In this document: positions 36,959-47,300 of the stretch, piece after piece
Layout of the letters: the number at the start of each line of letters is the position of its first letter
How positions within the stretch are numbered: the first letter of the stretch is position 1
Source: an archaeon
Lineage (GTDB): Archaea > EX4484-52 > WAPT01
Direction of reading: 5' to 3'
Assembly: GCA_029258795.1 (NCBI GenBank)
Contig: JAPDKB010000007.1
Span: forward strand, 1-55,069
Length of the DNA: 55,069 bases
The notes under the pieces: model-generated
The model's database searches: none
Told to the model about the DNA's origin: nothing
What the model saw: the letters and a program-made list of their open reading frames with translations, nothing else
Position numbers and translations under genes: made by a program

Positions 36959-38332
36959 TCAAACCGCACCCATGGATTTGAGCACACTCTCCAGCTCATT
37001 CATGATCTCTTCCTTTATTCTTTCCAGGGCTTCCTCGTTATCGGCTTCGAACCTGCATTTTATCATCGGCTCCGTGTTTGATGGCCTCACTATCCCCCAA
37101 CCATCTTCAAAGTCAACTCTCACTCCATCCATCGTGTTGAGCTGATAGCCCTTGGCTTCAAGCCTTTCCCTCAGCTTTTCAATGACATCCCATTTCAGCT
37201 CATCCTTCACTTTTATGTGGATCTCCGGCGTGGCCATGGCTTTCGGCAGCTCTGCCACGAAAGAACTCAGCGGAACATCAAGCTTGCTCACGAACTCCGC
37301 CATTTTCGCGCATGCGAAGATACCGTCGTCAAAGTAATGGTAGCAATAGGGGAAATACATGTGGCCCGAGAGCTCTCCTCCAAAAACAGCATTTCTCTTC
37401 ATCACCTCGTCCAGAATGTAGGCATGCCCAACTTTAGTTATAACAACCTTCCCTCCATTTTCCTCCACGAACTTCATGACAGCTTTTGATGTCCTGACCT
37501 CAAACACGACATAACCCTTTCTGTGCTCCAGAGCCTGCTTTGCGAGTATCATGAGGATCTGATCCTGCGTGACAACATTTCCTTTCTCATCCACAACTCC
37601 AATGCGATCACCATCTCCGTCAAGCGCTAAGCCGAGATCCGCTTTCTCTTTCACGACCTCCTCCTGAAGCCATTTCAGTGTTTCAGCTTTGAGGGGATCA
37701 GCTATATGGTTGGGAAATGTGCCATCCGGCTCCTTGAATATGGTCTTGACATCACAGCCGAGCTCCTTCAGAATTCTCTCGGGAATGTCCGCGCATGCTC
37801 CGTTACCAACATCCACCACAACCTTCAGCTTCCTTCCCAGCTTTACACGGGAAACTATGTTCTGGATGTAATCCTCAACCATGTTTTTATTCTCAACAAC
37901 TCCTCTCTCACTTGCTTTCTCTACCTCACCTTCCGCAACCATCCTTCCTATCTCATAGATTCCATTTTCGGCGTAAATTGGGTAGGCATTCTTACCGTTC
38001 AGCTTGAAGCCGTTATACTCGGGTGGGTTGTGGCTTGCTGTGACAGCAACACCACCATCGGTACCCAGCTTTATTATGCCGTAATACATGAGCGGGGTTG
38101 GACCGAAACCCAGATCAATTACATCACACCCCGCATCGAGAATTCCCTCGATTAGCTTTCCTTTGAGCTGGGGTGTGCTTGTCCTGTAATCTCCTATCAC
38201 CACCAGCTTTTTTGCTTTCAGAAACTGTGGAAAAGCGAGCCCCATCCTGTAAGCTATATCCTCGTTCAGCTCAGAAGGGTAAATGCCACGAACATCATAA
38301 GCTTTGAAGATGCGCGGGATCTCAGCAGGCAT
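36959..38332 (-). CDS. Phosphomannomutase/phosphoglucomutase
   Basis: Interconverts hexose 1- and 6-phosphates, here probably glucose 1-P/6-P for glycogen and mannose for glycans. 457 residues of the alpha-D-phosphohexomutase family: FKAYDVRGIYPSE, active serine in TASHNPPEYNG, metal loop DGDGDRIGVV, sugar loop GGELSGHMYF and phosphate loop RPSNTEPM. The frame is open 28 codons upstream, but the ATG at 38330-38332 fits a TATA (tttaaatatttt, minus reading) about 25 bases before it. The gene follows FBP aldolase/phosphatase. Confidence 0.93.
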   Translation of the reverse strand: MPAEIPRIFKAYDVRGIYPSELNEDIAYRMGLAFPQFLKAKKLVVIGDYRTSTPQLKGKLIEGILDAGCDVIDLGFGPTPLMYYGIIKLGTDGGVAVTASHNPPEYNGFKLNGKNAYPIYAENGIYEIGRMVAEGEVEKASERGVVENKNMVEDYIQNIVSRVKLGRKLKVVVDVGNGACADIPERILKELGCDVKTIFKEPDGTFPNHIADPLKAETLKWLQEEVVKEKADLGLALDGDGDRIGVVDEKGNVVTQDQILMILAKQALEHRKGYVVFEVRTSKAVMKFVEENGGKVVITKVGHAYILDEVMKRNAVFGGELSGHMYFPYCYHYFDDGIFACAKMAEFVSKLDVPLSSFVAELPKAMATPEIHIKVKDELKWDVIEKLRERLEAKGYQLNTMDGVRVDFEDGWGIVRPSNTEPMIKCRFEADNEEALERIKEEIMNELESVLKSMGAV

Positions 38333-38412
38333 ACTGCACAACCATGAGGTAAGAAAAATATTTAAAGGGAAGGGTGCTCGAAAACGGCAAGCAGCACCCC
38401 ACCGAACCAACT

Positions 38413-39519
38413 TCACTCCGGCCCTTCCAGCTTTTCAAACCTGTCCTTGAACTTCTCGAGCACGTGAGGCAGTGTGGTGTACTCCATCTCGTCAGCGCTG
38501 AGCCTGTGTGGCTCGAACGGTCCGTGCCTTCTGATGTAATCAGCAACGAAATTGGCTGTCTCTCTTGCTCTGTCAAATGCCGGGTCATCGAACATGTCAA
38601 TTGGACCATCGAGCATTCCGTTACAGAGCTGGAATCCGGCTGCTATGACACGCGGAGGTCCGTCAAACCTTGAAGGAGTTGCGTGCTTGAAGCTCACAGG
38701 CATTAATGGACCGTGGTGGCTGCCGCGCATCCACCCTGCAACCATGTGAGGGAAAGCAAATGGCTCAAGCACCTCACCCACTGCGGGGAAACCACTCTGG
38801 CATCTCACTATCATGACAGGGTCGTCCTTGCCAACGTACTTGCCTGCCATGAGGTTCAATCTCTGGGTTGAGGTTACTGCCGCCACCTCGCCATCACTCT
38901 TCCTGAACACGCTTTTTATCACGTATCTGCTGGGCTGACCGATTAGGGCAAGTAGATCATACATTTCTTCCGGCACATTGAACCTTATCTTTTTGTGCTC
39001 GATCACATCATGCACCTCAAAGATGAAGCCATCATGCATTTTTGGATCTATCACAAGACCTGCTGTGTTGAATGGATCCGCGAATATCCTGAATAGAGGC
39101 ATGTTCCATGCTCCCGGCTCCGTCTTATCAGCCATGAAAACGATTACCGGTTCGGAGGGTCTCTCCTCAAAAGCCATTTCAGCCACGCCCGGCCCCATAC
39201 CTTTCACATTACCGCTGAACGTGTCCTTGAGTAAGTCCTGACCGGCTCCGTAGAGCTTTTTCTCCTTCGCAACCTCTGTAGCTGCAAGAAAAGTATCCCA
39301 TGCCGCTTTGTGTATCTCCTCGTTCTCTATGAACTTATCATGCGTCATGATAAGCTGGAGATCATCACCGCATGCCATGACCCTGTAGTCAAAGATCACT
39401 CCTTCCTCTTTCTTTTGTTCCAGTACTTCTCTTGCCTTCTCCATCAGTGCGTAATGCACGCGAGAGTGGCCAACAAGGCCACCAACATCCGCCTTTATTA
39501 CGGACAGCGTTACTTTCAT
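38413..39519 (-). CDS. fbp: Fructose-1,6-bisphosphate aldolase/phosphatase (class V)
   Basis: This archaeal enzyme makes fructose 6-phosphate directly from triose phosphates, the committed step of gluconeogenesis. 368 residues with TLSVIKADVGGLVGHSRVH at the N-terminus (metal-binding Asp/His) and the conserved end GPFEPHRLSADEMEYTTLP. Almost full identity to the family pattern. It sits between debranching enzyme (17 bases upstream) and phosphohexomutase (80 bases downstream), so trioses could be led to a glucan. Confidence 0.96.
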   Translation of the reverse strand: MKVTLSVIKADVGGLVGHSRVHYALMEKAREVLEQKKEEGVIFDYRVMACGDDLQLIMTHDKFIENEEIHKAAWDTFLAATEVAKEKKLYGAGQDLLKDTFSGNVKGMGPGVAEMAFEERPSEPVIVFMADKTEPGAWNMPLFRIFADPFNTAGLVIDPKMHDGFIFEVHDVIEHKKIRFNVPEEMYDLLALIGQPSRYVIKSVFRKSDGEVAAVTSTQRLNLMAGKYVGKDDPVMIVRCQSGFPAVGEVLEPFAFPHMVAGWMRGSHHGPLMPVSFKHATPSRFDGPPRVIAAGFQLCNGMLDGPIDMFDDPAFDRARETANFVADYIRRHGPFEPHRLSADEMEYTTLPHVLEKFKDRFEKLEGPE

Positions 39520-39535
39520 TTTATCACCTCCATCA

Positions 39536-41611
39536 TTATTTGATAAAGCACTTGATCATGTTACGCTTAGATGGCTTGAAAACAGCCACATTACCCTCAT
39601 ACACTTTATCATTTATACTTATCATCTCCACATCTTTCGGCATGATGAGTTTGCACTTACAGTTTGGCTTCTTATCGAACACAATCTCCATCTGATAAAG
39701 ATGTGAGAGCTTTGCAGCGGTCAAGCTGAAATTCTCACCCAGCATTCTCAACTTCCCACGCTTCCAGAACCGAATACCTGCGGGAAATTTGGGAGATACT
39801 ACTATGCAGTTTTCTTCCGCATCCACACCCATCAGGAAGCGATCAACTATGAACGGCACGAGAGACACGCTCCAGAGCTGAGCTCCCGCTCCGACCAGCT
39901 CACCTGTTTCGGAATTCCACGCTTCTCCCACAAACCCTATATGACCTCTATCCACATCCGCAAGCAGCTTTCTCAGCAAAATGATGCCGTGATGGAGTTC
40001 GCCGGCCATAAAGCACGTGGCACTTCCAAGCAATGTGGTGAAACCCCACGCACTTCCTCTGTGATAACTCCAGCTCCAGTATTTTGCATCGAGGTTAGAG
40101 AGTGTTCTTATTCCATAATCGCATTCGAGCTCCTCCTTCATCTTTCTCACGATGGCTTTGAGCTCGTGTTTTGTGTAAGCGCCAAAAAGTGCGGCTATCA
40201 TGCAGTTAGGAGTTACGGAAGCATCCACCACTCTCCCAAAGGAATCAAACGGATACATGAAATCGTTGTTCCAGTAAAACTTTCTGAACGCGGTTTCAAG
40301 CTCCTTCGAAAGCTTCCTCTTTCTGTTTCTCAAAGCCTTCCACCACATGGATTGAATTTCCACTGCTGTTGGCCCTCTGCTTATCGAGTCCATCCACGTT
40401 TCGTTTCCCTTGTGAATGACAAAATTCTGCTCCACTTCAAGCGATTTAAGCACTTTATTTTCCACATTCTTGATAAAAGGAAGAGCGATGCCACTGATTT
40501 TTTCGTATTCATCAGCCACAAGAAGGAAAAGCGGAGAAACATCAGCGCCATGATATAAAGCTTCCACATGATTAACATCCAATGTGAGAGTGCATGGCAC
40601 TCTGTTCTTGGTGTTCTTGGCTAACAGCTCCATAATTTTACCGGCTTCTTCGTCCATGCCGAGAGAGAGTAAAGAGAGAGCAGAAAAGAGATTGTCTCTA
40701 CCCCACATCTCGATAAACCATGGGTATCCCGAAATCAAATAAGTTCTATCATCCTTTTCATATAGAAATGAATCCATATTCAGGAGAGCGATCTTGAACA
40801 TCGTGTTGAGAGATTCATCATTGGAAATCAAGACGTTTCTCCTCAGAAGTTCGAGGACGTGCTTGACTCTTTCCTTCATCAGCTTTCTCCAGTCGGCTAT
40901 GCATGCATCTAAGCTATCGATCGCTTCCCTCTTTCTGAACCCTGCTGCCAGCACAAACGGTAAGTAGTAAGTTTCATGAGGAGCCAGTGTAAATTTCACA
41001 ACATAGCTTGCGGGCAAAAAGCATTTCTGTAGCTCTCCCGAAGGATAATGCTCTTTGTAATGAAGAATGGGAGTTATCTTAATATCCAGCGCCTCTTCCA
41101 TGAAATCACTGCCATAGCACGCATAAAGTCCATCATCACTCCTCACTATAACACTCTTTCTCTTACTTTCAACTTCAACATCATACTTCCTCAAATTGAA
41201 TTCTTCCTGCTTCCGTCTGATGTTAACTGCGACCTCTGCCCCCACCTCCACATCCCTTTCCTCATTACTCTCATTCGTGAACTTGAGAAGCACGACGAGC
41301 GAGTTCTGGTTTAAAGGCACGAAAAGAATCTCCTCCACCTCAACATCATCGTTCATACTGTTTTCAAGCCGATATTTGTGAGTTGCACTATAATAACAAT
41401 ATTTAGTTTCAGTTATATTCTGAGGAGAAAGCCACTCATCGTTGATCTTGAAAGCGAAATATTCGTAGAATTTGAATGGTGGCTTCCATATTCCACACCA
41501 CTTGTTCACAAATCCATTATTCGTGCATCGATAAAGAAACAGTTTTCTTCCTGAAAGGGAGTAAAATGATCGATGAATTTTCTCCCCTTTCACGACATAA
41601 TGCGGTAACAT
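39536..41611 (-). CDS. Glycogen debranching enzyme, amylo-alpha-1,6-glucosidase (GH133 type)
   Basis: The 691-residue protein corresponds to the amylo-1,6-glucosidase part of debranching enzymes. N-terminal domain to about 260, then the (alpha/alpha)6 barrel with YLISGYPWFIEMWGRDNLFS, NETWMDS, YWSWSYHRGSAWGF and VGEAWNSETGELVGAGAQ. No glucanotransferase domain is present, as in other archaeal forms. It heads the minus arm of the glycogen locus; aagtatataag lies 24-34 bases before its ATG, so it is probably leaderless. Confidence 0.92.
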   Translation of the reverse strand: MLPHYVVKGEKIHRSFYSLSGRKLFLYRCTNNGFVNKWCGIWKPPFKFYEYFAFKINDEWLSPQNITETKYCYYSATHKYRLENSMNDDVEVEEILFVPLNQNSLVVLLKFTNESNEERDVEVGAEVAVNIRRKQEEFNLRKYDVEVESKRKSVIVRSDDGLYACYGSDFMEEALDIKITPILHYKEHYPSGELQKCFLPASYVVKFTLAPHETYYLPFVLAAGFRKREAIDSLDACIADWRKLMKERVKHVLELLRRNVLISNDESLNTMFKIALLNMDSFLYEKDDRTYLISGYPWFIEMWGRDNLFSALSLLSLGMDEEAGKIMELLAKNTKNRVPCTLTLDVNHVEALYHGADVSPLFLLVADEYEKISGIALPFIKNVENKVLKSLEVEQNFVIHKGNETWMDSISRGPTAVEIQSMWWKALRNRKRKLSKELETAFRKFYWNNDFMYPFDSFGRVVDASVTPNCMIAALFGAYTKHELKAIVRKMKEELECDYGIRTLSNLDAKYWSWSYHRGSAWGFTTLLGSATCFMAGELHHGIILLRKLLADVDRGHIGFVGEAWNSETGELVGAGAQLWSVSLVPFIVDRFLMGVDAEENCIVVSPKFPAGIRFWKRGKLRMLGENFSLTAAKLSHLYQMEIVFDKKPNCKCKLIMPKDVEMISINDKVYEGNVAVFKPSKRNMIKCFIK

Positions 41612-41744: not shown

Positions 41745-43589
41745 ATGGAACAGAAAGCTAAATTCGTGTTTGAGGTTTCTTATGAGGTGTGCAATAAAGT
41801 TGGGGGCATCCACACCGTCATTTCTTCAAAAGCCCAGTTCATGAAGGACGTGTATGGTGATAATTACATAGCAATCGGTCCATATTTTGAGGAGAAAGCA
41901 AAAATGGAGTTTGATGAAACAAAATGTCCACATGCATTTCTGGAGGAAGCCATAAAAGAGATGAAAGATGCAGGAATAGAATGCAAATTCGGTGTTTGGC
42001 GAGTGCCCGGCAATCCGTATGCTGTTCTGGTGGATTATCGTGCGGTCATGGATATCAAAAATGCTGTTAAGGGTAAGTTCTGGGAGCTTTACGGCATCGA
42101 CTCCATAAGATCTGGAATGGATTACGATGAACCCCTTATGTGGAGTTACGCATGCGGCATTCTGATAGAAAAAATGCTGGAGAAGATGAAGCACGATGAA
42201 AAAAAGAGAGTGGTGGTGCATCTCCATGAATGGTTGAGTGGCGGCACATTGTTTTACCTTAAGATGAGGGACATAGACGTGCCTGTTGTTTTCACCACTC
42301 ATGCGACCATGCTGGGTAGAACGCTTGCACACCATCTCCACAACTTTCATGAGGTGGTGGAGTCGGGATTAAAGGAAGGGAAAGTGGTTGATGAGAAGAT
42401 GGCATACAAATTCTGGATGGAGGCAAAGCACCAAACAGAAAGAAAGTGTGCTGAGCTTGCAACGGTTTTCACTACCGTCTCCGACACCATGGTTGAGGAG
42501 TGCATGTTCATTCTGGGGAGAAGACCTGATCTTGTTCTCCCAAACGGGCTGGATATGAGGAGTTTCCCTTCCATAGAAATGATCACATATTTGCATGTGA
42601 TGAATAAACAAAAGTTGCTGGATTTTGCAAGGGGATACTTTAGCCCGTATTACGAAATAAAAACGGACGGTACGAGATTCATATTCATCTCTGGAAGGTA
42701 CGAGTTCAGGAATAAGGGCATAGATATTTTCATTCGTGCTCTGGGGAAAGTGAACAGAATGTTGAAGGCAGAGGGGTGCAAAACGGATTACTTTGCATTG
42801 ATTCTGGTGCCTTCTGGAGTAAAGGCAGAACGTCAGGACGTGCTCGAGAACATCTCCCTTTATAGAGGTATAAAGGACTACATGGAAGAAATACTGGAGC
42901 GTGTGGAAGATAGATTCATGGATGTGGTGACAAACAGGAGAAAGGGCGACATAGCCTCACGCATAAGAAACGTGCTGACGGAGGAAGAGCGGTTGAAACT
43001 GAGAAAGCTTTCCCTCTCGTTCCAATCAAGAACAGAGGATCGTGCACCACTCACACCTTTCGTCTTGAATTACGAGGAAAAGGATGATATCATTCTCAAT
43101 GAGCTAAAAAAAGAAGGTCTTCTCAACAGAAAGGAGGATAAGATTAAGGTTGTGTTCTATCCTTCTTACCTCTCCATCACCGATCGTTTGCTCGGCATGG
43201 ATTACAAATCCGTTGTGATGGGTTGTAGTGTGGGTATCTTTCCTTCATATTATGAGCCATGGGGCTACACACCTCTTGAAACGGCAGCGTTGGGGGTTGT
43301 TGCCATTACGACTGATTTTGCTGGATTTGGTAGGGCTGTAATGAAGCTGGAGGAAGTGGATAAAGATGGTATCATCGTGCTGAAAAGAAAAGGTAAGAGT
43401 GATGAGGAGGTTGTGGAAGAGCTTGCTTCACATATTTACACACTTCTCAAATCTCCAAAGGAAAGAATAGGTGTGCTAAAACATCATGCGGTGGAGCTTT
43501 CCAGACATTTTGACTGGAATGTGCTTGGGTGGAGATACATCGAAGCGCATAATTTGGCGATTGATAAAGTGAGTAAGGAAGGCACTTAA
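41745..43589 (+). CDS. Eukaryote-type glycogen synthase (GT3)
   Basis: Elongates alpha-1,4-glucan from a nucleotide-glucose donor. 614 residues that follow eukaryotic GT3 synthases step by step: FEVSYEVCNKVGGIHTV, HLHEWLSGGTLFY, FTTHATMLGR, VFTTVSDTM, PDLVLPNGLDMRSF, FISGRYEFRNKGIDIF and SYYEPWGYTPLETAA (E504 and E512). The arginine-rich helix by which glucose 6-phosphate activates animal and yeast enzymes is replaced by SPKERIGVLKHHAVELSRHFDW, so that control is probably missing. The frame opens earlier (41682), but homology begins just after ATG 41745. Confidence 0.93.
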   Translation: MEQKAKFVFEVSYEVCNKVGGIHTVISSKAQFMKDVYGDNYIAIGPYFEEKAKMEFDETKCPHAFLEEAIKEMKDAGIECKFGVWRVPGNPYAVLVDYRAVMDIKNAVKGKFWELYGIDSIRSGMDYDEPLMWSYACGILIEKMLEKMKHDEKKRVVVHLHEWLSGGTLFYLKMRDIDVPVVFTTHATMLGRTLAHHLHNFHEVVESGLKEGKVVDEKMAYKFWMEAKHQTERKCAELATVFTTVSDTMVEECMFILGRRPDLVLPNGLDMRSFPSIEMITYLHVMNKQKLLDFARGYFSPYYEIKTDGTRFIFISGRYEFRNKGIDIFIRALGKVNRMLKAEGCKTDYFALILVPSGVKAERQDVLENISLYRGIKDYMEEILERVEDRFMDVVTNRRKGDIASRIRNVLTEEERLKLRKLSLSFQSRTEDRAPLTPFVLNYEEKDDIILNELKKEGLLNRKEDKIKVVFYPSYLSITDRLLGMDYKSVVMGCSVGIFPSYYEPWGYTPLETAALGVVAITTDFAGFGRAVMKLEEVDKDGIIVLKRKGKSDEEVVEELASHIYTLLKSPKERIGVLKHHAVELSRHFDWNVLGWRYIEAHNLAIDKVSKEGT

Positions 43590-43612
43590 AGATTGTTGGA
43601 GGGTATGAGAGC

Positions 43613-44335
43613 ATGGAGGAGCAGGCGCTGAGCAGGAAGATCGCAGAGAAGATAATAAAAAGACTGGGTGTGGATGAGAAGGACATCGAATATGGAAAGA
43701 AGCCAAAAACAGTAGTGCTTATAACCCCTGATTTCTTTCCAAGAATGAGTAATGAGATAGCATACACAACTAAAGAAATTGCTCAGCATCTCGCCTCAAG
43801 AAACCTAAACGTGCATGTTGTGAGCTACGATCCGTGGAAAGCCGAGCAAAAAGAGAGTTTTGCAGGTTTTACCGTGCATTATGTCAACAATCCTGTGAGG
43901 GCATACTCCCCATTAACATGGACTCTCACCTTATCCATGGAAGTCAGCAGGGTCATTGCAGATATATTTCATGAGGAGGGCAATATAGACCTCATACATG
44001 CTCACGAATGGTTGAGCTTTCCTGCTGGCATTCATTTGCAGGCAGCCCTGAAAAAACCGTTGCTTGTAAACTATTACTCCATCGAACATATAAGAACACC
44101 GGGAGTATGTAATGGTTATACAGAGGCAGTAAAGCAAATTGAGTGGCTGGCGAGCTACGAATCAAGAAGAATATTTGTGAATCAGGAATGGTTAAAGAAC
44201 CTACTCCACATGCATTACAGCACGCCGTATGATAAAGTGAATGTCGTGAATCCGGAGGATAAGGAGTTTGATAGAAAAATTTTGCGCGATTACACATGGG
44301 TGATGAGGCAATGGAGAGAAATGATGGAGAAATAA
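43613..44335 (+). CDS. N-terminal half of a GT-B glycosyltransferase
   Basis: The 240 residues resemble only the N-terminal Rossmann domain of GT4/GT5 glucan synthases (TVVLITPDFFPRMSNEIAYT, LIHAHEWLSFPAGIHLQAAL at about 127-146, TYESRRIFVNQEW-like). The KxGGL loop is lost (RMSNE instead), and there is no C-terminal donor-binding domain. Not a frameshifted first half of the next gene, which has its own complete N-terminal domain. ggaggg precedes the ATG. Probably a catalytically inactive partner or regulator of the next protein, with which it overlaps by 40 bases. Confidence 0.78.
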   Translation: MEEQALSRKIAEKIIKRLGVDEKDIEYGKKPKTVVLITPDFFPRMSNEIAYTTKEIAQHLASRNLNVHVVSYDPWKAEQKESFAGFTVHYVNNPVRAYSPLTWTLTLSMEVSRVIADIFHEEGNIDLIHAHEWLSFPAGIHLQAALKKPLLVNYYSIEHIRTPGVCNGYTEAVKQIEWLASYESRRIFVNQEWLKNLLHMHYSTPYDKVNVVNPEDKEFDRKILRDYTWVMRQWREMMEK

Positions 44336-45570
44336 CTGTGTTGCATCTGAGCTGGGAGTTTCCGCCTTTCAAAGTTGGAGGGCTGGGTACGCACGTTTAC
44401 AATCTGAGCAGAGCTCAGGCGAAAGTGGGGTTGAAGCCCATTGTGCTCACCTGCGGATTTAACGGACTCTATGGAAAGGAGGAAACGAAGGATGGCGTTA
44501 CCATCTACCGGATAAACGCGGACAACATTCCTGCTGAAGATTTTTTCTCTTGGGTTCTGCAGATGAACATGCTTTTGCAGATCGAGGCTGCAAGGATTTT
44601 CCGTGAGAACAGAATAAGCATAATTCATGCTCATGACTGGCTCGTGACCACGACAGCAGTTGCGCTAAAACACATATATCGTGTGCCGTTGGTGGGGACC
44701 ATCCATGCTCTTGAAAGCGGAAGGTATGGTGGGATAAGAGGAGATAGGCAGGTGTTGATTCATGATCTGGAAGCCAAACTTGTTTTTGAAGCGTGGCGTG
44801 TCATCTGCTGCTCCAACTTCATGAAGTACAGTGTTGTAAGCACCTTCGGCACGCCAGAGAACAAGATTGATGTCGTGCCCAATGGTGTGAATGCTCAGGA
44901 CTTTGACTTCGAGTTTGATGAGGAGGAGTTCAAATCAAGATACGCTTTACCCGATGAAAAAATCGTGCTGTTTGTGGGGAGACATGTTTGGGAAAAGGGT
45001 CTTGACATTCTGATGGGAGCTGTGCCGATGATCTTGGCAAAGCATCCTGAAGCCAAATTTGTGGTCACGGGAGACGGTTATCTTAAGCCCAAATGTGAGG
45101 AACTCGCAAGGCAGAACGCGCCTGAAGGAAAGGTGCTCTTCACGGGCTACGTGGACGATGACACACTCAAAAAGCTGATGAGAGTGGCAAGCGTTATAGT
45201 TGTACCCTCCCGATACGAGCCATTCGGCATAGTTGCTCTTGAAAGCATGGCGGCAAGAACGCCTGTGGTGGTGGCAGATACAGGGGGGCTTGGAGAGATT
45301 GTGGAGCACGATAAAACCGGCATAAAGGTGTGGGTGGATAATTCCGAGTCGGTGGCGTGGGGTGTCAATTACGTTCTTGATGAAGCCAACGCACAGAAGA
45401 TTAAGGAGATTGTGGATACCGCACATAAAATTGTCCGAGAAAAATACAACTGGGAATATATTGCTAAAGGAACAAAGTCCGTGTACAGCAGAGTGCTCGA
45501 AGAGTATGAGCAGATAACTTGGAAGCCCAGACCGGAAATATTTGGGTGGAGAGAAATTGAAACTGCGTGA
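44296..45570 (+). CDS. GT4/GT5-type alpha-glucan synthase or related glycosyltransferase
   Basis: A complete GT-B enzyme of 424 residues: PPFKVGGLGTHVYNLSRA (KxGGL at about 26-30), IIHAHDWLVTTTAVAL, VVPNGVNAQDF, VLFVGRHVWEKGLDIL and SRYEPFGIVALES (E308, E316). Looks like archaeal ADP/UDP-glucose glucan synthases. The start may be 44296 or 44311; both lie within the end of the half-GT gene, so translation is coupled. Two kinds of synthase in one locus suggests division of roles, e.g. different donor or chain length. Confidence 0.9.
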   Translation: MGDEAMERNDGEITVLHLSWEFPPFKVGGLGTHVYNLSRAQAKVGLKPIVLTCGFNGLYGKEETKDGVTIYRINADNIPAEDFFSWVLQMNMLLQIEAARIFRENRISIIHAHDWLVTTTAVALKHIYRVPLVGTIHALESGRYGGIRGDRQVLIHDLEAKLVFEAWRVICCSNFMKYSVVSTFGTPENKIDVVPNGVNAQDFDFEFDEEEFKSRYALPDEKIVLFVGRHVWEKGLDILMGAVPMILAKHPEAKFVVTGDGYLKPKCEELARQNAPEGKVLFTGYVDDDTLKKLMRVASVIVVPSRYEPFGIVALESMAARTPVVVADTGGLGEIVEHDKTGIKVWVDNSESVAWGVNYVLDEANAQKIKEIVDTAHKIVREKYNWEYIAKGTKSVYSRVLEEYEQITWKPRPEIFGWREIETA

Positions 45571-45648: not shown

Positions 45649-46926
45649 ATGGTATCTGTTTGCTTCTACTTCGAGGTTCATCAGCCGCGCAGGTTGAAGC
45701 CGGGATGGAGGATAAAGCTGGAGGGAGTTGAAAGCTTTGAGGAGTTTGAGAAAGCGATATTTGATGAGGATACGAATGAAAGGATAATGAAAAAAGTTGC
45801 ATCCAAATGCTATCTCCCGACCAACAAGCTCATTCTAACTCTGGTGGATAATTATCGGAAACAAAAAAAGAAGTTCAAGGTTAGCTATTCTCTCTCCGGA
45901 GTATTTCTGGAACAGGCCCAGAAGTACGTTCCGGATGTTGTTGAAAGCTTCAGATGGCTGGCCGATACTGGCTGTGTGGAGTTTCTGGCTGAAACCTATT
46001 ACCACAGCCTCTCCAGCCTGTGGATCAACAACGAGCTCCATGATGAATTTGTCGAGCAGGTGGAGATGCACAAAGCCATGATCAAGGACCTGCTTGGTGT
46101 TGAGCCGAAGGTTTTCAGGAACACGGAACTCATTTTCAACAACGACATAGCCAAGGTTGTGGAAAAAATGGGATTTAAGGCGATGCTTGCTGAGGGGATA
46201 GAGCATGTGCTGAATGGCAAGAGTCCTGAGCATATCTATAAAGCTTACGGCACGAATTTGCCCGTTTTGCTCAGGCATTACAGGCTCAGCGATGATATAA
46301 GCTTTCGGTTTTCTGCAAGGTGGTTTGAAGCTTGGCCTCTAACCGCTGATAAATTCGCGAGCTGGGTGGCTGCATGTCAGGGAGAGGTCATAAATCTATT
46401 CATGGATTACGAAACGTTCGGGGAGCATCAGTGGGAAGATACGGGCATTTTTGAGTTTCTGAAACACCTGCCCTATGAAATTTTCAAGTATGAACATGTC
46501 GATTTTGTAACGATAAGTGAAGCGGTGCAACGATATCCCATTAGAGGCGAGATAGATGTGCCTGGATGGAGCACTATATCGTGGGCTGACCTTGAAAGGG
46601 ATCTCTCAGCATGGCTTGGAAATGAGATGCAGAGAATAGCTTTCAAGGAGCTCGAAAAGATAGGAAAGATGCTGAAGGAGAGAAACATCGAGGAAGCAAG
46701 AAGGTTGTGGCGCTACCTTCAAACATCGGACCATCTCTACTACTGCTGTACCAAACACTGGAGTGATGGTGATGTGCACAAATACTTCAGCCCGTATGGT
46801 ACGCCGCACGAAGCTTTTGAGGGTGTGATGAAGGTGCTCACCCATCTCCAGTATCTCATGAAAAAGAGTTATGAGGAAGATGAAGCTGATCTGGATGTAG
46901 AGGAAAAGGCAATGAGTGCGGAGTGA
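45649..46926 (+). CDS. GH57 alpha-amylase
   Basis: A 425-residue GH57 retaining glycosidase that breaks alpha-1,4 links in glucan. Opening VSVCFYFEVHQP matches the family. The nucleophile is E160 in KVFRNTELIFNN and the acid/base is D253 in LFMDYETFGEHQW. Similar to the MJ1611-type intracellular amylase; no signal peptide. A TATA-like atataaata at about 45606-45614 allows own transcription as well as read-through from the synthase genes. Confidence 0.92.
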   Translation: MVSVCFYFEVHQPRRLKPGWRIKLEGVESFEEFEKAIFDEDTNERIMKKVASKCYLPTNKLILTLVDNYRKQKKKFKVSYSLSGVFLEQAQKYVPDVVESFRWLADTGCVEFLAETYYHSLSSLWINNELHDEFVEQVEMHKAMIKDLLGVEPKVFRNTELIFNNDIAKVVEKMGFKAMLAEGIEHVLNGKSPEHIYKAYGTNLPVLLRHYRLSDDISFRFSARWFEAWPLTADKFASWVAACQGEVINLFMDYETFGEHQWEDTGIFEFLKHLPYEIFKYEHVDFVTISEAVQRYPIRGEIDVPGWSTISWADLERDLSAWLGNEMQRIAFKELEKIGKMLKERNIEEARRLWRYLQTSDHLYYCCTKHWSDGDVHKYFSPYGTPHEAFEGVMKVLTHLQYLMKKSYEEDEADLDVEEKAMSAE

Positions 46927-46931
46927 TTGCA

Positions 46932-47300
46932 ATGGCTCTGGAGGTTTTGATTTCTGAAAGTGAAGACAAAGTGGAGGCGACAATATTCAGCAGAAAGGGG
47001 AATGAGTATGTTGATGTTCAGTTCGTTATTCTTGCAAGGTATGGTGGTAGTGAGGGGAAAGAATTGCTGGACATCCTCTGTTTTCAGGAGGAAGGTGGAG
47101 CGCAGGTTTCACCCATCTTTCACTATTACGCCAGCTTTGAGGATGAGTGTGGGATAAGGAAACTCGCTACCGGAATTTACAGATTGGTTTTGCCGAAATG
47201 CGCCGCTGATGGAAAACAACTGCAAGAGCTTGAGGTTGTGGGTAGTGCCGGCATTGTGCTGAAAAAAATAGAAGTTGGAAGAGTAAGAGGTCACTCATAA
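46932..47300 (+). CDS. Small unknown protein of the glycogen locus
   Basis: The 122-residue protein is not recognised. It alternates beta strands ([34 protein letters not shown]) with [32 protein letters not shown] and looks like a small beta-sandwich, as in carbohydrate-binding modules, but no motif confirms this. ggagtga precedes the ATG (a GTG 9 bases upstream is possible). Begins 5 bases after the GH57 stop and is almost surely co-translated. It overlaps the convergent ndk gene by 10 bases. Confidence 0.75.

Follow-up and report, generated by a model that had tools for sequence, protein, structure and literature searches.

The glycogen locus described here raises the question of what a glycosyltransferase without its donor-binding half does beside a complete enzyme. 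The locus lies in a stretch of 55,069 nucleotides (the window) from an archaeal genome of 1.17 Mb, and it encodes a eukaryote-type GT3 glycogen synthase, a half glycosyltransferase (hereafter, the half), and a complete GT4/GT5-type synthase. The occurrence of GT3 in DPANN glycogen loci has been reported previously (PMC11046441); the combination of GT3 with a second synthase in one archaeal locus is therefore not surprising, and the novel element is the half. According to this 2024 review, archaeal GT3 enzymes are uncharacterised and their enzymology is unknown, and the role of an extra GT4 in archaeal glycogen metabolism needs clarification (PMC11046441).

Organization of the glycogen locus

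The locus extends beyond the three transferases, which are flanked in the window by genes for a debranching enzyme (GDE) and a GH57 enzyme (Table 1), the latter being a conserved neighbour of the half and synthase in relatives. The usual gene order among relatives is GDE, GT3, sometimes phosphoglucose isomerase, half, synthase, and GH57. For comparison, contig L039 is from the same genus as the window, L040 to L042 (Nanohaloarchaea MAGs) and L008 are from the same order, and Nanohaloarchaea L053 and L054 belong to another phylum, that of G050.

Table 1 Features of the glycogen locus, with positions in the window.
Feature	Position	Strand	Basis or remark
GDE_C-type glycogen debranching enzyme-like gene	39536-41611	-	Pfam; divergent from the GT3 gene
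GT3 glycogen synthase, 614 aa, eukaryote-type family	41745-43589	+	Pfam Glycogen_syn
Half glycosyltransferase, 240 aa; GT-B NH2-terminal acceptor domain and COOH-terminal crossover helix, donor domain absent	43613-44335	+	Pfam, model, Foldseek
Crossover-helix segment (codons for half residues 220-239)	44270-44329	+	Alignment and model
Complete GT4/GT5-type synthase, putative glucan synthase	44311-45570 (longest ORF from 44296)	+	Pfam, motifs
Overlap of half and synthase genes, 25 bp	44311-44335	+	Conserved start; 40 bp only with the non-conserved ATG at 44296
GH57 family enzyme (amylase or glucan transferase)	45649-46926	+	Pfam Glyco_hydro_57, 5.6e-81

Additional open frames adjoin the locus. 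A 125-aa ORF (46923-47300, plus strand) overlaps the end of the GH57 gene by 4 bp; it gave no match in a search of Pfam and NCBIfam, and a homologue with 32% identity occupies the equivalent place in L039. Past the debranching gene on the minus strand are genes for a product that by our reading resembles FBP aldolase/phosphatase (38413-39519) and for a phosphomutase-family protein (36959-38416), so that sugar-phosphate genes appear to adjoin the glycogen locus.

The sequence-only reading gave the overlap of the last two genes as 40 bases. The overlap itself was found, and its length was revised: the ATG at 44296 reads CTG in L039, which retains an in-frame ATG equivalent to that at 44311, and the conserved overlap is therefore 25 bp. 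Other half/synthase pairs mostly overlap by 1 to 40 bp or lie 9 bp apart, with one gap of 186 bp.

The two complete synthases

The assignment of the first gene to the eukaryote-type GT3 family was borne out by a full-length match to Pfam PF05693 (Glycogen_syn; 447 bits, cut-off of 27) and by an alignment with yeast Gsy2 over 601 residues (E value of 1.7e-105). The protein also aligns along its length with the human muscle synthase, and it carries a KVGG-type loop and the E-x7-E motif (NKVGGIHTV and YEPWGYTPLE, aligned to Gsy2). Most arginines of the Gsy2 stretch QRINQRNRTERLSD, an arginine cluster that we take to be the eukaryotic glucose-6-phosphate sensor, are replaced in the COOH-terminal part of the window GT3 in this alignment, and eukaryote-like control by glucose-6-phosphate therefore appears doubtful. 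Across the phylum of the window, 30 of 34 genomes encode a GT3.

The downstream gene was likewise found to encode a full GT4/GT5-type synthase, as proposed previously. It has both GT-B Pfam domains and the KxGG, R-x4-K, and E-x7-E motifs, with KxGG and those R, K, and E positions being 98 to 100% conserved across 46 synthases. Its closest solved relatives are GlgM (6tvp) and Pyrococcus abyssi GlgA (2bis), and its whole fold matches the group of GlgM, MshA, and P. abyssi GlgA. Context and relatives suggest that the product is a glucan and the donor an NDP-glucose.

Structure of the half glycosyltransferase

Pfam searches with the half yielded only NH2-terminal domain families (Glyco_transf_4, 8e-16) and no COOH-terminal domain family, and the donor-binding COOH-terminal domain is missing from all halves. 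The alignment of half to synthase breaks at the start of the donor domain and picks up again at the last helix, which contains a conserved tyrosine (Tyr227, in 98% of halves). The last ~22 residues of the half correspond to the GT-B crossover helix, modeled as a helix at residues 219-239. The protein had been described as consisting of the NH2-terminal GT-B domain only, without the donor half; the absence of the donor half stands, whereas the "only" does not, given that the crossover helix is also kept. A structure model of the half (pLDDT of 91.9, pTM of 0.84) matched MshA, GlgM, P. abyssi GlgA, and 6ldq (TM of 0.76 by target) in Foldseek; a sequence search of the PDB with the half alone returned no match.

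In a comparison of 50 halves with 46 synthases, W133, P149, R161, and E177 (half numbering) were invariant in both proteins, H129, K208, and Y227 were nearly so, and the KxGG loop was present in 100% of synthases and absent from the aligned halves. The TxHS histidine is lost in halves of the window lineage (Tyr155). The half of G358, an archaeal genome of 3.8 Mb with 6% contamination, has RVVGS at the position of the KxGG loop. This half (L224, 8313-8948, plus strand) is the least changed of the halves found, with PPRVVGS, HAHDW, and HSTETHR being kept, and a synthase of the window's type adjoins it.

Judged from these alignments, the half is a paralogue of a GT4/GT5-type synthase; it has lost the donor-binding Rossmann domain, whereas its acceptor side and closing helix have been kept. 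By its anatomy it is predicted to be non-catalytic. The proposal that it is a probable pseudoenzyme partner of the downstream synthase gained from the lack of both the donor domain and KxGG and from the conserved association of the two genes.

The domain cut, which leaves exactly the acceptor side and crossover helix, invites the explanation that the half serves as a substitute acceptor module, docking on the synthase donor domain in place of the synthase's own NH2-terminal domain and thereby changing acceptor choice, much as in Alg13/Alg14 or in GT-B dimers engineered from interchangeable domains; indeed, separately expressed GT-B domains can form an active enzyme (PMC10937113). However, the synthase already has an NH2-terminal domain of its own, and the loss of KxGG, together with Tyr155 in place of the TxHS histidine in the window lineage, makes a composite active site unlikely. 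We consider such domain exchange quite improbable.

Conservation and descent of the half

The half is under strong purifying selection, with dN/dS ranging from 0.038 to 0.065 between close relatives wherever dS could be estimated; dS was saturated in several pairs. A check of relatives for decay of the gene found an intact half throughout most of the window's phylum (30 of 34 genomes, with G018 left out of the count given that its match is a 404-aa enzyme) as well as in other phyla, and a pseudogene was rejected on the basis of this conservation and dN/dS. The loss of the whole donor domain might still be taken to mark the half as a leftover of duplication with no present role, as might its faster evolution relative to the synthase in Nanohaloarchaeota (for example, 67% versus 83% identity). 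Its intact state over three phyla and further archaea, the low dN/dS, the invariant positions, and the structured model all argue against a mere leftover, to which we assign only a very slight chance.

The 53 halves formed one clade (96.1/100) in a tree of 118 sequences, with the support for monophyly having been reached after the addition of the G358 sequences and a full tree search. Halves of the window's phylum together with that of G358 formed a clade with support of 99/100 in this tree, as did their synthases (99/100), and the half and synthase of G005 both fall in the other group. The half and synthase trees thus share their main split, consistent with a single ancient origin and with the two proteins having descended jointly. 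In an earlier, smaller analysis, independent truncation in each lineage was worse by 37 to 52 log units and was not rejected by the AU test (p = 0.14 and 0.07).

Outside the window's phylum, the half was found in about 18 of 28 Nanohaloarchaeota (including one fusion and one broken copy), in about 14 of 145 sampled genomes of the phylum of G037, and in three further archaeal genomes (G295, G327, and G358). With its reading frame kept open in about 65 genomes, the gene goes far beyond chance. The remaining strong matches in the 394 archaeal genomes searched were full-length enzymes, and a search of plasmids for the half gave no match. Two Bacteroidota candidates (L093 and L105) were rejected as halves, both being complete enzymes of 452 aa.

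Pairing of the half with the GT4/GT5-type synthase

The synthase accompanies the half in every genome but one, which is 57% complete, and nearly always lies immediately downstream. In the window's phylum, 29 genomes have both genes, that single genome has the half only, none has the synthase only, and four have neither (Fisher p = 1e-4, with kinship ignored). Adjacency and kinship by themselves also lead to co-occurrence.

In family f5, the two genes are unlinked, the half being next to a FEN-1-like gene and the synthase close to genes for ribosomal proteins, as we read these neighbours; G006 and G011 nonetheless retain both. In G327, the pair is located beside translation-factor genes and away from the glycogen cluster. 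In some relatives of G037 (L032, L191, and L194), another synthase is present in the position of GT3. Given this replacement of GT3 and the off-cluster pair of G327, the conserved unit is the half with the GT4/GT5-type synthase and not a complex with GT3, and the earlier grouping of GT3 into a synthase complex was abandoned. The protein that occupies the GT3 position in L032 (4154-5674), L191, and L194 is synthase-like, with a length of 506 to 530 aa, and Pfam matches only its COOH-terminal domain.

L225 and L226, from other archaea, contain a GT4 of this kind by a GT5-like synthase, GH57, an isomerase, and a kinase-like gene, but no half. On the evidence of these loci, the half appears to be an addition in certain lineages that is not always needed, and they offer a natural comparison for its contribution.

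These distributions also bear on the explanation that the half acts alone as a glucan- or sugar-binding protein, either lectin-like or sensing and concerned with glycogen turnover, that is co-transcribed with the synthase and not bound to it. An intact acceptor-side fold with several invariant shared positions would suit such a protein, as would the encoding of the half in glycogen clusters with GDE and GH57 and its unlinking from the synthase in f5. On the other hand, the synthase is kept with the half in all genomes but one, even off the glycogen cluster, the two trees share their main split, and a joined chain of both proteins was predicted with a pTM of 0.83 (see below). A free-standing binding protein is therefore, in our estimation, unlikely.

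Predicted arrangement of the half and synthase

A read-through chain of half and synthase from L008 was modeled in one prediction, with a resulting pTM of 0.83, compared with ~0.60 expected for two independent bodies of that size as calculated from the pTM formula rather than from a control run. The alignment for this chain had 20 rows, consisting of 11 naturally in-frame pairs and nine further halves; the first mixed alignments had placed halves onto the synthase NH2-terminal domain, and only alignment A8 was usable. The prediction suggests that the joined half and synthase have a defined arrangement, but the pTM may instead reflect a homodimer-like signal. P. abyssi GlgA trimerises via its NH2-terminal domains (PMC11046441), suggesting a way in which an NH2-terminal domain paralogue might bind.

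A single open frame of 567 aa in G083 (L179, 7472-9172, minus strand) unites half and synthase and is possibly either a fusion or a sequencing error. We set it aside as proof, given that it comes from one genome of mixed quality and that the second copy (L180) is composed of two ORFs.

With a probability of about 0.6, we interpret the half as a subunit that is dedicated to the neighbouring GT4/GT5-type glucan synthase and has no catalytic function itself. It would bind this enzyme, most likely by contacts between acceptor domains of the kind by which related synthases oligomerise, and the resulting heteromer would combine a single active site with an additional acceptor-type surface. This surface might hold glucan or primer, and the second synthase might thereby start or channel chains that GT3, or elsewhere another synthase, then lengthens.

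Discussion

We found no earlier description of a conserved half-synthase that is linked to a complete synthase. Published work on glycogen synthases in truncated or inactive form was also searched, and the matches listed were all unrelated. Plant SS5 presumably lacks the COOH-terminal GT1 domain. It is a non-enzymatic starch-synthase-like protein that is counted among initiation proteins and whose mutants have fewer granules (PMC10801857, PMC9667719). The half resembles SS5 by description, with each being a non-enzymatic synthase-like protein beside active synthases and the half having the NH2-terminal domain without the catalytic COOH-terminal domain; in contrast, SS5 belongs to the GT5 type, is located in plant plastids, and has other partners (MRC), whereas the archaeal protein is GT4-like, with its gene lying by that of its synthase. 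A GlgA fragment of Bacteroidetes is similarly a partial synthase kept in a lineage that uses GT3 glycogen synthase (PMC11046441), although it has been reported only as a fragment and is likened to the half by description.

MshA and GlgM (corynebacterial/mycobacterial GT4 enzymes) and P. abyssi GlgA share the NH2-terminal domain fold with the half but are complete enzymes with a donor domain. The 6ldq structure (SPS tll1590, residues 27-220 and 406-426) contains the NH2-terminal domain and crossover helix with the donor domain cut out, and thus has the same architecture, but it is an engineered truncation, whereas the archaeal half is natural and conserved. In Alg13/Alg14, GT-B activity is also divided between two polypeptides; each of these supplies one needed domain, however, whereas the partner of the half is already a complete GT-B enzyme.

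A search for GT8 glycogenin-family proteins in the 34 genomes of the window's phylum gave no match, and no glycogenin homologue has been found for archaea with GT3 (PMC11046441). The pair might therefore be a heteromeric glycogen-starting enzyme of DPANN archaea that plays for GT3 the part of glycogenin in eukaryotes, and the half would then serve as an acceptor module devoid of catalysis. This initiation role is drawn solely from the lack of matches to the glycogenin family and from the parallel with plant SS5, and we put it forward as a tentative possibility of fairly low probability. A paper on nanohaloarchaea lists glycogen genes and reports that they are expressed, and no mention of the half was found in its passages on the subject (PMC10266531).

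How glycogen chains are started in archaea with eukaryote-type GT3 is open (PMC11046441), and the half with its synthase provides a concrete candidate. Nanohaloarchaeota, a group with members that are maintained in co-culture, also contain relatives of the half. If our interpretation is correct, the half would be a natural instance of a GT-B enzyme of which just the acceptor side was retained, in the service of a subunit role.
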